64,000 bases of DNA. Origin: Verrucomicrobiaceae bacterium (GTDB lineage: Bacteria; Verrucomicrobiota; Verrucomicrobiia; Verrucomicrobiales; Akkermansiaceae). Shown here piece after piece: positions 23,361 to 53,850 of this stretch. The position numbers and the translations under genes were made by a program. How positions within the stretch are numbered: position 1 is the stretch's first letter; each line of letters opens with the position of its first letter. The stretch spans positions 1-64,000 of the forward strand of contig JAIXWR010000010.1 in assembly GCA_027491155.1 (NCBI GenBank). Reading direction: 5' to 3'. The notes under the pieces were generated by a model, which ran no database searches, had not been told where the DNA came from, and was given only the letters and a program-made list of their open reading frames with translations.

Positions 23361-23905
23361 GCTCCGACGACTACGCGAAGAAGCAGACCAAGCGGGATGG
23401 CGAGTACGAGCGCGAATACGAGGCCTGGGTGAAGTCGATGTCCCTCGATGAACGTCGGGAGGCGGAGAAGCTCGGCCTGCTCAAACCGTGCCTCCAACGC
23501 CATGGCAACGGCGCTGCCGACCATGACATGGCCGACACCCCTGCGGCCAGCCACACGCCGGACATCGCGGCGCTGGTGGAACCTGACGATGACCCACCGG
23601 AGACCCAGTCGATGGGCAGCGCCACCGAGATCCTGCGCCGCCTGGTGGCCGACATCGTCTTCGAGGACAACACCCGGCTGACCATCGACTGCCTGACCAT
23701 CGCCCTGGGCCTGCGGGTCTATGCCGGCGACAGCATGACCATGATCGCCAAGCGCCACGGCATCACCCGGGCCGCCGTCTCGAAGCGCTGCGTTGACATC
23801 ACCGAAAGGCTGAAGCTGCCCCCATCCCGGGCGATGCGCAGCGAGACGGCCCGCAGGATCTACCGCAACTCACAGCTCAAGCGATACCGCTCCGAAAAAT
23901 CATGA
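23357..23905 (+). CDS. HTH protein, sigma-region-4-like
   Basis: 182 residues, ATG at 23357 preceded by AAAGGAGG. The C-terminal ~90 residues hold a helix-turn-helix (MTMIAKRHGITRAAVSKRCVDITE) with the pattern used by sigma factor region 4 and similar activators. The N-terminal half is charged and probably unstructured (DYAKKQTKRDGEYEREYEAW). A transcriptional regulator of early or middle genes is likely, though no target can be named. Confidence 0.65.
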   Translation: MSSDDYAKKQTKRDGEYEREYEAWVKSMSLDERREAEKLGLLKPCLQRHGNGAADHDMADTPAASHTPDIAALVEPDDDPPETQSMGSATEILRRLVADIVFEDNTRLTIDCLTIALGLRVYAGDSMTMIAKRHGITRAAVSKRCVDITERLKLPPSRAMRSETARRIYRNSQLKRYRSEKS

Positions 23906-24504
23906 ACACCCTCGCCATCCACGACCCCAAGTTCTCGATCACGCCCACTGGAATCCAGTTCAGCGAGGAACTGAGCTTCGATGAATGGGACAGGCTCGGA
24001 CAGCAGCTCGCTCCCGTCGGCAAATCCATCGGTTTCATCATCGGCGACTGGATCAACTACGGCGAGAATCGCTATGGCGAAAAATACCAGGAAGCGCTCG
24101 ACCGGACGGGGCTCGCGGCCCAAACGCTGCGCAACTATGCTTGGGTTGCCCGCCGTGTTGAAATGTCTGTCCGGACAGACAATCTCGATTTCACCCACCA
24201 CCAGGTTGTGGCCAAGCTCAAGCCCGACGAGCAACAGCACTGGCTCGACATGGCCGAGAAGCACCAGCTCGGGAAACGTCGGCTCCAGAAGTCGATCAAC
24301 TTCGGCCGCCTCGCCACCGAAGAGGAGGTCCAGGGAGATCCCGCCGACAAGGGTGTCGTCACCCACCTCGCGCTGATCAACCGGCTGATGCGTTGGTGGA
24401 AGCAGACCACGGCCGATGATCCGGTCGATCGATGGGACGAGGAACAGCGCGAGAACGTGAAGAGGGATTTCGGCCGCCTCTTGGAAATCTATGAGGCGCT
24501 CTAA
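23902..24504 (+). CDS. Helical phage protein, possible DNA-binding regulator
   Basis: 200 residues, coupled to the previous gene by ATGA. A region from ~40 to 130 (SIGFIIGDWINYGENRYG, then ALDRTGLAAQTLRNYAWVARRV, then HHQVVAKLKPDEQQHWLDMAE) resembles HTH-containing plasmid/phage regulators in which a helix-turn-helix precedes a helical bundle. The internal sequence CTGTCCGGACAG (24169-24180) is a palindrome. Function uncertain. Confidence 0.6.
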   Translation: MNTLAIHDPKFSITPTGIQFSEELSFDEWDRLGQQLAPVGKSIGFIIGDWINYGENRYGEKYQEALDRTGLAAQTLRNYAWVARRVEMSVRTDNLDFTHHQVVAKLKPDEQQHWLDMAEKHQLGKRRLQKSINFGRLATEEEVQGDPADKGVVTHLALINRLMRWWKQTTADDPVDRWDEEQRENVKRDFGRLLEIYEAL

Positions 24505-24510
24505 CAAAAC

Positions 24511-24582
24511 CGCAGGGAGGGCGGTCCCAGGCGAGATTCATATCCTCGACCTCCGCGGGTTCAATTCCCGCCCCTGCAACCA
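24511..24582 (+). tRNA. tRNA-like sequence with initiator features, anticodon CAT, degenerate D-arm
   Basis: 72 nt that fold as a reduced tRNA. The acceptor 5' CGCAGGG (24511-24517) pairs with 3' CCCTGCA (24572-24578) except C1 against A72, the mismatch typical of bacterial initiator tRNA. Anticodon stem CGAGA/CCTCG (last pair mismatched) encloses a 7-nt loop TTCATAT with CAT at 24539-24541. The T-stem GCGGG/CCCGC encloses TTCAATT, and an encoded ACCA ends it (24579-24582). The D-arm region is only ~14 nt and lacks the usual G18G19 pattern, so it may be a decayed or tRNA-mimic element rather than a working tRNA. Confidence 0.55.
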
Positions 24583-24761
24583 TCTCTCGACGACCCGGCG
24601 GGGTTCAAACCGCCACGGAGGAATTGAACCCGGGAAGGAATCTATTGAAGGCCAACGACTAAGGCAGGGACGTTCCCACCCGTGTCCATTTCCCGTGCAA
24701 TGCGCCATCGCGACTTCCCACATAACGGGCGGTCCGGACGTTGACTCCGGGCACCAGGGGA

Positions 24762-25124
24762 ATGGCTGCGTCCCGCTTGGAATCAAGGTTTCTGCTGCTC
24801 TGGCGAGTGGCGCAAGGCCCGCCGCTGGAGCGGGAAGTGAAGTTCCACGCTTCCCGTCGCTGGCGTGCCGACTTCGCACACTTGGCAAGCCGGACCCTGA
24901 TCGAGATCGAGGGCGGAATCTTCCTCCCCGGCGGTGGCCGGCACAGCCGCGGGGCGGGCTACGCCAAGGACGCCGAGAAGTATCTAGAAGCCGTGCTGGC
25001 CGGCTGGACGGTCATCCGCCTGACCGAGCGTCAGCTCGAAATCGACTTCATCGGGCGGATCGTGGCATGGATCAATACTCTTCCGGGAGCAGGATGCAGG
25101 TCGAACTCCGATCCGCCTCGGTGA
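24762..25124 (+). CDS. Small PD-(D/E)XK endonuclease, Vsr/DUF559-like
   Basis: 120 residues from ATG 24762, with TTGACT 15 nt upstream. It has the core WRADFAHLASRTLIEIEGG: Asp then Glu-x-Glu in the place of the D...(D/E)-x-K acids, followed by a His/Arg-rich loop and AVLAGWTVIRLTERQ. This order of motifs is that of very-short-patch-repair-like endonucleases found in phages. Probably a structure-specific nuclease acting in replication or recombination. The end overlaps the convergent gene by 53 bp. Confidence 0.7.
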   Translation: MAASRLESRFLLLWRVAQGPPLEREVKFHASRRWRADFAHLASRTLIEIEGGIFLPGGGRHSRGAGYAKDAEKYLEAVLAGWTVIRLTERQLEIDFIGRIVAWINTLPGAGCRSNSDPPR

Positions 25125-32385: not shown

Positions 32386-32552
32386 TGCCGGCTTGCCAGG
32401 CTGTCCACCGAAGGTAATTTCGATCCCGGAGGTGGAGGCGAAATCGTCTCGGACGTCAGAGCCTGGTGAAATAGGCATGTGCTCGTCGCCTCACCTCCAA
32501 CTTCCCGCCAGAGCGAATGCCGCTTCGCTTCGTTGACATCCGCCACGCGGGC

Positions 32553-33275
32553 ATGAGTGAAGCCCAACGTGACGAGGTGGTTCCACGCGGTGCCTGGCAG
32601 TTCGACCAGGAGGTGACCACGGTCTTCGACGACATGCTCCAGCGCTCGATCCCGCAATACAACGCGATGCGGATGGTGACCTTCGAAGTCGGCCGGCGCT
32701 TCGTGCAACCCGACACCACCATCATCGACATGGGGTGCTCCCGCGGCCAGGCGCTGCTGCCATTCGTTTCCAACTTCGGCGCGGCCAACGATTACATCGG
32801 CCTGGAGATCAGCGAGCCGATGATCGAGGCGGCGCGGCAGAACTTTTCCTACCACCCGCACGGCAACCGCGTCAGCATCCGCTCTGACGACCTGCGCCAC
32901 GAGTTCCCCGGTGTAACCTCCAGCCTCGTGCTCTCAGTGCTCACGCTCCAGTTCACCCCCATCGAATACCGCCAGCAGATCATCCGCCGCGTGTTCGAAT
33001 CGCTGGCGCCGGGCGGCGCCTTCATCCTCGTTGAGAAGATCCTCGGTGCCACCGCTCGGCTCGACGAGGCGTTCGTGGAACTCTTCCTCAACATCAAGCG
33101 GGAGAATGGCTATTCGGAGAGCCAGATCGACCGCAAGCGGATGTCGCTGGAAGGCGTGCTGGTGCCCGTCACCGCCCGCTGGAACGAGGAGCTTCTCCGC
33201 GAAGAAGGCTTTTCCTCGGTCGACTGCTTCTGGCGGCACCTGAACTTCGCAGGCTGGGTGGCGGTAAAGGGGTAA
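32553..33275 (+). CDS. CmoA-like carboxy-SAM synthase/methyltransferase
   Basis: 240 residues from ATG 32553, chosen because TTGACA lies 14 nt upstream; an upstream in-frame start at 32517 exists. It resembles E. coli CmoA along its length: FDDMLQRSIPQYN, IIDMGCSRGQALLPF, LVLSVLTLQFTPIEYRQQ, then RENGYSESQIDRKRMSLEGVL. The Arg of the last segment aligns with the CmoA Arg199 that I recall contacts the carboxylate. CmoA makes carboxy-S-adenosylmethionine from SAM and prephenate for tRNA wobble uridine modification. No CmoB-like gene is nearby, so the product may feed the phage methyltransferase-like protein. Confidence 0.82.
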   Translation: MSEAQRDEVVPRGAWQFDQEVTTVFDDMLQRSIPQYNAMRMVTFEVGRRFVQPDTTIIDMGCSRGQALLPFVSNFGAANDYIGLEISEPMIEAARQNFSYHPHGNRVSIRSDDLRHEFPGVTSSLVLSVLTLQFTPIEYRQQIIRRVFESLAPGGAFILVEKILGATARLDEAFVELFLNIKRENGYSESQIDRKRMSLEGVLVPVTARWNEELLREEGFSSVDCFWRHLNFAGWVAVKG

Positions 33276-34324: not shown

Positions 34325-34351
34325 CGGGGCGTTGACGTTGTCGGCATGGGC

Positions 34352-36172
34352 ATGAAGGCCCTGAAGGAGATTTGGCGCGAGGCCTGGCAGCCGCCCGACC
34401 GGCGGCCGGCATGGCAGTGGTGCGAGGATCACATCGAGGGCATCCCGTATTCGCCGAACCCGGGACGCTTCCGCTCGGAAAACTCGCCGTGGATCCGCGA
34501 GGTGATGGAGACGTTGGTCGATCCGCGCATCCGCCTGGTCTCGATCATCGCCTCGGTCCAGTCGTCCAAGACCACCGCGCCGGAACTCACGCTCTGCTAC
34601 ATCATTTCCAACCTGCCAGGGCCTGCCTTGTGGCTCGACCAGACCGACGAGGATGCGCGCGACTATTCCGAATCGCGCCTGCAGAAGCTCTTCGACCAGT
34701 GCCAGCCGGTCGCCCGGCTGATGCCCACCGGCATCCACCGCCACAAGCGCAAGAACAACGCGATCCAGTTCACCAACGGCATGACGCTCTGGATCCTCGG
34801 CGCGCACAACAAGACCAACCTTCAGCGCCGGTCGATCCGCTGGCTGATCGGCGACGAAACCTGGCGCTGGCCGCAGGGACACATGGCCGAGGCCGAGGCC
34901 CGCGTCACCGCGTTCGGCTGGCTCGGCAAGTGCATCTTCATGAGCCAGGGCGGCGAGGAGGAAGACGACACCCACCGGAAGTTCGAGGCGACCGACCAGC
35001 GGGAGTGGACTTTCGCCTGCCCGGAATGCGGCCATCGCCAGCCCTTCAAGTGGGAATGCGTCGAGTGGAGCAAGTCGGCCAAGGATGAATTCGGCGAGTG
35101 GGACTTCGACGAGGTCCGGCGCACCACCGCGATGCGCTGCGAGTCGTGCAACCACTACTTCAACGACGGCGAGCGCACCCGCCGCGAACTCAACGCCAGC
35201 GGGGCTTTCGTCGCGAAGAACCCTAAGGCCTCGAAGGAAAACGTCGGCTTCCACTGGAACGCCCTGTGCGCAATGAGCTGGGGACAGCTCGCCGAACTTT
35301 ACCTGCGGGCCAAGGCGGCGGCGCGGAAGGGCGACGTGTCGCTGCTCCAGCAGTTCTATCAGAAACGGCTAGGCCTGCCGTGGCGCGAGTATGTCGAGGA
35401 CTACAAGCTGGAGATCATCAAATCCGGCTACAAGCGCGGGGAGACCTGGGAAGAGGAAGGCGCGATCGATCCCAAGACCGGCAAGATCCTCGCCGCTCCG
35501 CTGCCCGAACGCACCGGCTTGATCCCACTGCGCTTCATCACCGTGGACTGCCAGATGGACCACCTCTTCGCCGTGGTCCGCTCGTGGTCTGCGGAGGGAT
35601 CGAGCCGCCTGGTCTGGAACGAACGGATCCTGACCTTCACCGACATCGACGTCCTGCAAGAGCGCTTCGGCGTTCATCCGAGCCTCGTGTTCCTCGACGC
35701 CGGCTATGCGACCTACGACGTCTATCGCGAGTGCGCCAAGCGCGGTTGGGTCGCGCTCATCGGCGACCGGCGCCCGGTCTATGCTCACAAGGGCCGTGAC
35801 GGCAAAACGGTCCAGCGGTTCTACTCGCCCCGGCGCAAAGTGGTCCTCTCGCACCGCCAGCACTGCCACGTCCACTACTGGAGCAACCTCAACATCAAGG
35901 ACACGCTCGCCCGGCTCCGCCGCAACCAGGATCCGGCGCGAGGCCCGACCTGGGAAGTCCCCGACGACATCGACGACGACTACCTCGCGCAGATGGAGAG
36001 CGAGCAGCGGATCAAGGAGAAGGGCCAGTGGATGTGGAAGCAGATCGGTTCGCGGCCGAACCACTACTTCGACGGGGAGTCAATGCAGGCCACGGCCGCC
36101 ACCATGCTCAAGATCGTCGGGCGGGAGTCCGTCATGGCCGCGGCGGTTGACACTCCGGACGGGGAGTCATGA
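34352..36172 (+). CDS. Terminase large subunit, GpA family
   Basis: 606 residues from ATG 34352, the start that places TTGACG 14 nt upstream; ATG 34346 is also possible. The ATPase part has ASVQSSKTT (Walker A-like), IGDETWRW (Walker B). A zinc-ribbon-like pair, CPECGH and CESCNH, lies in the middle. The nuclease part includes ITVDCQMDH and FLDAGYATYDVY. Family membership predicts a lambda-type cos packaging motor. The stop overlaps the next start. Confidence 0.9.
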   Translation: MKALKEIWREAWQPPDRRPAWQWCEDHIEGIPYSPNPGRFRSENSPWIREVMETLVDPRIRLVSIIASVQSSKTTAPELTLCYIISNLPGPALWLDQTDEDARDYSESRLQKLFDQCQPVARLMPTGIHRHKRKNNAIQFTNGMTLWILGAHNKTNLQRRSIRWLIGDETWRWPQGHMAEAEARVTAFGWLGKCIFMSQGGEEEDDTHRKFEATDQREWTFACPECGHRQPFKWECVEWSKSAKDEFGEWDFDEVRRTTAMRCESCNHYFNDGERTRRELNASGAFVAKNPKASKENVGFHWNALCAMSWGQLAELYLRAKAAARKGDVSLLQQFYQKRLGLPWREYVEDYKLEIIKSGYKRGETWEEEGAIDPKTGKILAAPLPERTGLIPLRFITVDCQMDHLFAVVRSWSAEGSSRLVWNERILTFTDIDVLQERFGVHPSLVFLDAGYATYDVYRECAKRGWVALIGDRRPVYAHKGRDGKTVQRFYSPRRKVVLSHRQHCHVHYWSNLNIKDTLARLRRNQDPARGPTWEVPDDIDDDYLAQMESEQRIKEKGQWMWKQIGSRPNHYFDGESMQATAATMLKIVGRESVMAAAVDTPDGES

Positions 36173-53759: not shown

Positions 53760-53850
53760 TGGCGGACCGGGAGGGATTCGAACCCTCGGTACTCTTTTGG
53801 AGTACGCACCTTTAGCAAAGGTGTGCTTTCGACCACTCAGCCACCGATCC
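53760..53850 (-). tRNA. tRNA-Ser(GCT), prophage attachment site
   Basis: 91 nt including an encoded CCA. Acceptor GGATCGG/CCGGTCC, anticodon loop TTTGCTAAA with GCT (Ser), a long variable arm (TACTCCAAAAGAGTA), T-arm GAGGG TTCGAAT CCCTC. Acceptor and T-stems pair completely. The 3' end faces the integrase gene, as at attachment sites. Confidence 0.95.

Follow-up and report, generated by a model that had tools for sequence, protein, structure and literature searches.

In bacteria, the tRNA that starts protein synthesis is expected to have three G-C pairs beside its anticodon loop, an A11-U24 pair and a D-arm of normal size. In tRNAs the G18G19 of the D-loop contacts the T-loop, and the usual partner of U8 is A14. 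Some mitochondrial tRNAs have reduced D-arms together with longer anticodon stems, a form of structural compensation. Among the players around tRNAs, the PIN fold includes the VapC toxins, and tRNA genes are frequent integration sites of phages. It has long been asked why phages carry tRNAs (PMC10264068), and that paper states that, with VapC-LT2 of S. flexneri as the nuclease, phages have generally avoided encoding tRNA-fMet. An enteric VapC cleaves initiator tRNA, according to a reference cited in PMC12482277. Phage tRNAs themselves are already known, and what is new here is a variant of them, an initiator-type tRNA with a miniature D-arm; a search of open-licence PubMed Central found no paper on such tRNAs of phages.

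The window, by which we mean the whole 64,000-nt stretch of Verrucomicrobiaceae DNA that was analyzed, holds an integrated phage with a conserved gene for a start-type tRNA with a shrunken D-arm. Its parts and its neighbors are as follows.

23902..24504, + strand: upstream ORF of 200 aa, without a PHROG or Pfam match, whose stop codon ends 6 nt 5' of the tRNA
24511..24582, + strand: the whole initiator-type tRNA gene with miniature D-arm (from sequence, alignment, consensus fold, covariation and a score of 86.1 bits)
24511..24517, + strand: 5' side of the acceptor stem, CGCAGGG, with C1 opposite A72 (24578); by sequence, C1.A72 being shared by 34 of the 35 distinct sequences of the group
24519..24528, + strand: miniature D-hairpin, GGGCGGTCCC, with GG in its loop; by sequence and group covariation, with GG kept in the wider class
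24530..24551, + strand: anticodon arm with loop TTCATAT; CAT at 24539-24541, A.C at 31.39, bulged A at 24549; by folds
24555..24571, + strand: T-arm, GCGGG-TTCAATT-CCCGC; by sequence, every cell (100%) being paired in the group alignment
24572..24582, + strand: 3' side of the acceptor stem, CCCTGCA, then the discriminator A and an encoded CCA; by sequence
24741..25124, + strand: downstream phrog_503 gene, whose relatives are alignable from the ATG at 24762

Parsed by element, 24511-24582 reads CGCAGGG-A-GGGCGGTCCC-A-GGCGAG-A-TTCATAT-C-CTCG-A-CC-TCC-GCGGG-TTCAATT-CCCGC-CCCTGCA-A-CCA, a 72-nt cloverleaf whose acceptor stem has 6 bp below the C1.A72 mismatch, whose D-arm is only a 10-nt hairpin, whose 7-nt anticodon loop is closed by an A.C (31.39), and whose anticodon stem contains the bulged A (24549). 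The first-pass annotation had described a 72-nt tRNA-like structure with C1-A72, a CAT flanked by T and A, a perfect T-arm, an encoded ACCA and a short D-arm, and each of these is as it stated. Folded alone, the sequence gave a z of -2.15, with 5 of 200 shuffles equal or better; a single-sequence cloverleaf that is modest relative to shuffles is suggestive of a real tRNA, not proof of one, and with 80 nt of downstream sequence added the fold was no better than shuffles (z -0.21). We conclude that the window tRNA is not a chance fold because it is conserved in relatives (46 of 65 loci) with strong covariation.

The relatives were collected by the downstream protein, giving 65 IMG/VR loci and 48 genome loci. 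A covariance model, R1, was built from 27 aligned relatives with the window and its identical copies left out and with the structure specified by hand. All 46 of the IMG/VR loci that carry the tRNA at >75 bits with R1 are among the 52 closer relatives (L009-L060), so that sister phages do hold related copies, contrary to one of the refuting outcomes named in the first-pass annotation; the tRNA was missed in L027, L051, L056, L057, L058 and L060, of which L027 and L058 have 418 and 2 upstream bases, and R1 found none in the 13 most distant IMG/VR loci. Ten of the 48 genome loci have the tRNA, all ten titled as Verrucomicrobia, the 48 comprising 45 with Verrucomicrobia-type titles, a Kiritimatiellae bin, a Saccharibacteria bin and one unclassified; these titles point to a host in Verrucomicrobiota. 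Of 384 genomes from the host class, 9 match R1 with an E of at most 1e-11, one of them the genome of the window itself, and six of these nine are more distant variants (59-73 bits) that lie amid other tRNAs in surroundings that look chromosomal by eye. In the 35 distinct group sequences TCAT is unvarying and the one exception to C1.A72 is a C1.U72. Other positions are less constant: the encoded CCA is absent from 4 of the 46 group copies (L032, L034, L039, L045), and L028 and L052 have another base in place of A37.

The consensus structure was examined in two alignments. In 40 distinct rows, 97.4% of cells were paired and 10 of 21 pairs had changed on both sides, as had three of the four D-hairpin pairs across the group, although this alignment was fitted to R1 and its pair counts are favored accordingly. 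When partners in the same alignment were slid out of register, pairing fell to 42.8-61.0%, and none of 500 shuffles was as high in covariation on four measures, with 7 of 500 as high on the fifth. The second alignment (A2, by MAFFT, 35 rows) had an acceptor gap that we judged misplaced in 8 rows, which were left out of R1; RNAalifold, run on all 35 MAFFT rows and thus with that gap in 8 of them, again predicted a cloverleaf, in which 6 of 18 pairs show two-sided changes. Within this structure two of the features expected of a bacterial initiator are lacking. The run of three G-C pairs (29-31/39-41) is absent, the window having A.C at 31.39, G-C at 30-40 and A-U at 29-41, and the pair taken as 29-41 is A-U in 39 of the 40 rows. 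Similarly, at the pair that corresponds, with numbering by analogy, to 11-24, 36 of the 40 rows have G-C, 3 have A-U and 1 has G-U.

Could the phage have copied the tRNA from its host? The host initiator-type tRNA (L108 1498-1574, - strand) has C1.C72, a normal D-arm and the loop CTCATAA, relative to TTCATAT in the window, with A38 changed to C or T in the window group. A recent copy of the host initiator is ruled out by the host's C1.C72 and normal D-arm, and its T-stem is different also.

The RNA search tools gave divided results. ARAGORN made no call at 24511-24582, its sole call in the window being a tRNA-Ser at 53760-53850, and Rfam at gathering score likewise found only the tRNA-Ser. The RF00005 gathering threshold (29 bits) was not reached at 24511-24582, where under loose thresholds the top tRNA-family match was tRNA-Sec at 18.7 bits (cut-off 47). 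The covariance model of the relatives, in contrast, scored the window at 86.1 bits (E 3.3e-20). Thus the covariance score, which the first-pass annotation had named as a refuting check, lay far above chance, as did the covariation relative to shuffles, whereas ARAGORN was blank and the Rfam tRNA models stayed below cut-off. Elsewhere, 15 further stretches with one similar copy each were put to RF00005, and two copies pass, those of L436 and L176; L439, the sixteenth, has a doubtful candidate only, likewise absent from the Rfam list. R1 finds 13 of 14 wider-class stretches tried, three of them scoring at or below ordinary initiator tRNAs, and it misses the candidate in Acinetobacter phage phiAbaA1. 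It is not class-specific, because ordinary initiator-type tRNAs score 44-50 bits (L108, L074, L075, L079), and class members L248, L277 and L438 score 44.3, 38.1 and 27.8 bits.

The window tRNA belongs to a wider class, which we sampled with two pattern scans (a GCRGGG acceptor, a shortened D region and TCATA) whose resulting sets are neither complete nor random. Among the matches listed, at least 189 distinct sequences were reduced to 155 with good stems and then to 135, the 20 dropped last having 7.66 unpaired and typically an ordinary-looking D-loop (e.g., AACTGGTAA). Those 135, again among the matches listed, consist of 25 with the window-type motif and 110 outside it, and at least six window-group sequences (L338, L343, L370, L421, L426, L427) sit within the 110, missed by the regular expression. 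A second set of atypical CAT tRNAs, beginning GGCAGGGCAACTGGTAAGCC and with variants, has an ordinary-looking D-loop and an unpaired 7.66; it occurs in L349, L341, L381 and others, and the contig names suggest isolate genomes.

Position 1.72, among the matches listed, is mismatched in 81 of the 110 outside-motif sequences versus 15 of the 653 tRNAs with anticodons other than CAT that lie in those stretches. The mismatches take varied letter pairs (C.A 29, C.T 17, T.T 17 and others, among the matches listed), and it is therefore the mismatch itself that is kept, not one pair; the remaining outside-motif sequences have A-T or T-A (25), a G-T wobble (3) or G-C (1). Acceptor positions 2-7 were set by the search patterns and so are no evidence. 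The mismatched 1.72 ends, and C1.A72 in its own group, support the earlier description of the window RNA as phage-carried and fMet-like.

Another shared trait of the class is the D-arm. Among the matches listed, a D-hairpin is present in 129 of the 135, with a stem of about 4 bp and a loop of 2-4 nt, and the loop with its closing pair contains GG in 123 of the 129; a central GG is observed in 95%, again among the matches listed, versus 52% after shuffling of the D region. This GG is presumably G18G19, and its retention suggests that the contact between D-loop and T-loop survives. Position 8 is A in 114 of the 135 (among the matches listed), and the loss of U8 fits the loss of its A14 partner. 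In the anticodon arm, among the matches listed, the stem has at least 6 bp in 74 of 135, relative to 134 of 622 ordinary tRNAs, and 4 bp or fewer in 43 of 135, and the lengthening is a trend only, because ordinary CAT tRNAs already reach 11 of 30. The host-type loop CTCATAA is kept by 76 of the 135 (among the matches listed). A general scan for miniature D-arms with any anticodon returned 84 CAT and 27 others, in stretches preselected for CAT and hence as no unbiased comparison; judged by eye, the 27 include many mis-scored D-loops of the ordinary kind and a few cases (Trp, Arg, others) that look real.

ARAGORN detects 64 of the 135 miniature-D CAT tRNAs and misses 71, and it detects 2 of the 25 window-type copies (all among the matches listed). 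The first-pass annotation had thought that such an RNA would be unusual; these RNAs recur in viral contigs, where some are missed and some are annotated plainly as tRNA-Met. For instance, the copy in crAss-like phage cr85_1 is annotated tRNA-Met and has C1.A72 and the 3' end ACTA, and its array contains a second Met tRNA. The copy in Bacillus phage BSP38, also annotated tRNA-Met, pairs T with A at 1.72 and does not encode its CCA. Limnohabitans phage DC31 has a weaker look-alike, unannotated, inside a tRNA array. Rfam places a skipping-rope RNA near the Bacillus phage BSP38 tRNAs and an int-alpA RNA near another copy (L436 3480-3549; L277 1035-1101).

What, then, is the tRNA gene for? Its location in the window group raises the possibility that it acts in cis, the tRNA fold serving as a processing site within a polycistronic mRNA, by which the downstream genes would be given their 5' end or their dosage, with the RNA otherwise idle. 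The window-group RNA fills the intergenic gap (in 5 of 6 group examples the upstream stop lies 5 nt before the tRNA and an ATG 11-12 nt after it), and 13 of the 25 window-type copies, among the matches listed, are tight wedges between genes by the criterion that we set. That arrangement is not general: just 11 of the 110 outside-motif copies among the matches listed are tight wedges, some of those 11 still belonging to the window group, and 33 of the 135 (among the matches listed) have five or more ARAGORN tRNAs within 2 kb, that is, they lie in tRNA arrays, so that the wider class would be left unexplained. Furthermore, a bare processing site has no need of CAU, an open 1.72 end or a GG loop, and the tRNA persists in five sequences (the window, L009, L010, L019, L023) in which the start of the following small ORF is missing. 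We consider punctuation of this kind unlikely overall, though more plausible for the window group than for the wider class. The same five sequences weaken a further candidate, that the RNA is a leader for the small downstream ORF.

Several other elements of the prophage surround the gene. The sequence AAGGAATCTATTGAA, or a near variant, is at 24635-24649, and many sister loci have it in the matching place, after the small ORF and ahead of the phrog_503 gene; some relatives of the phrog_503 gene are annotated as DUF559 or very-short-patch-repair endonuclease. A methyltransferase-domain protein at 32517-33272 (+) matches phrog_4752, which is labelled tRNA methyltransferase. The tRNA shares its strand with the helicase, primase, terminase (34346-36169), portal, major head and tape-measure genes. 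The ORF starts at 34346, 36169, 43585, 45039, 46815 and 48793 (+) each have a TTGAC box 14-22 nt upstream; this box, which precedes several late genes, is probably the start-site box to which the tRNA, according to the first-pass annotation, may relate, a tie for which we found no support, as nothing linking the TTGAC box to the tRNA was seen when pairing was viewed by eye.

At the far end of the prophage its integrase adjoins the tRNA-Ser at 53760-53850, a point in favor of the miniature-D tRNA being a leftover of a host tRNA, whether as a decaying gene, an attachment site or the replacement of a tRNA broken by integration, the last being the tRNA-dependent lysogeny treated in PMC10865867. 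But the integrase is ~28 kb from the miniature-D tRNA, the tRNA beside it is an intact Ser tRNA, and the host has three intact CAT tRNAs elsewhere, so that replacement of a broken host tRNA by the phage tRNA is not seen here. The window has no exact direct repeat of at least 18 nt that could mark an attachment site, and no further exact match of at least 13 nt to the tRNA-Ser. Together with the covariation and conservation of the miniature-D tRNA, this makes a leftover very improbable.

We favor the view that the gene product is an initiator-type tRNA of minimal build, which the phage encodes and which acts in trans, and to this view we would give a probability of about 0.6. A working initiator-type tRNA is indicated because the 1.72 mismatch is kept by varied letter pairs, because the anticodon is CAU and because of the company of other tRNAs: although 81 of the 135 have no second ARAGORN tRNA within 2 kb, 17 of the 33 array copies have another CAT tRNA in the same stretch (both among the matches listed). 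We infer that the tRNA would be transcribed as part of a phage operon, excised by host tRNA-processing enzymes with its CCA already encoded, and charged with methionine by virtue of CAU, and that its unpaired 1.72 end would exclude it from elongation and leave it accessible to formylation, so that the charged tRNA could start phage proteins. What would the phage gain? Our leading guess is that the benefit lies in withstanding host enzymes that target initiator tRNA, as a start tRNA unlike the host's own may resist such enzymes and work while the host initiator tRNA is under attack. More tentatively, and with less than even confidence, we suggest that an initiator tRNA class so far overlooked may be common to several kinds of phage, its members having a D-stem of about 4 bp, a very short GG loop and A8 for U8, and going unrecognised by host enzymes aimed at the normal initiator.

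The same features could be read the other way, with the RNA as a decoy or regulator, an initiator mimic that binds MetRS, formyltransferase, IF2 or a tRNA-cleaving toxin and thereby sequesters the toxin or makes host initiation slower. Ordinary use of the RNA could be impaired by its lack of the G-C pairs by the loop and by its reduced D-arm, and the host genome has 19 PIN-domain matches. However, arrays with other tRNAs fit supply better than sponging, and one might expect a decoy to resemble the tRNA that it imitates, whereas the initiator of this host differs from it in C1.C72 and in its normal D-arm. We regard a decoy as decidedly unlikely.

If the trans-acting initiator-type tRNA is real, it would matter in several ways. 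A recurrent initiator-type tRNA often missed by ARAGORN and Rfam would change counts of phage tRNAs, the class would show how small a D-arm may suffice for a start tRNA, and it would make phage protection of translation initiation testable, for which Bacillus phage BSP38, as a cultured carrier, is usable as a bench system.

How does the phage tRNA compare with known systems? Like the canonical bacterial tRNA-fMet it has CAU with U33, an open 1.72 end and, in the window copy, A73 and an encoded CCA, but its D-arm is a small hairpin, position 8 is A, 31.39 is mismatched in the window and the loop is not flanked by three successive G-C pairs. Full-length initiator-type tRNAs also occur in phage genomes (Erythrobacter ZS04 and R6L, Komagataeibacter phiKX1) and share C1.A72 and CAT, although they are 77-nt cloverleaves with normal D-arms; those of ZS04 (L074 2953-3029) and R6L (L075 2953-3029) have C1.A72, are unannotated and lie between the terminase and portal genes. 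The apparently chromosomal arrays of Verrucomicrobiota (L180-L185) hold miniature-D CAU tRNAs as well, but alongside many other atypical tRNAs, whose T-loop is often TGCRA; beside the L182 array is an ORF that we take to resemble RtcB. With the mitochondrial tRNAs of reduced D-arm the phage class shares the shrunken arm and, as a weak trend, the lengthened anticodon stem, whereas it is encoded in phage genes, retains the GG of the D-loop and has an initiator-type end. Finally, like the phage tRNAs that PMC10264068 proposes to evade tRNA-targeting defences, it is phage-encoded and altered relative to the host copy, but where that paper has phages generally avoiding tRNA-fMet under VapC-LT2, it is an initiator-type tRNA that is encoded here, and the change has reached the D-arm, not the loop alone.
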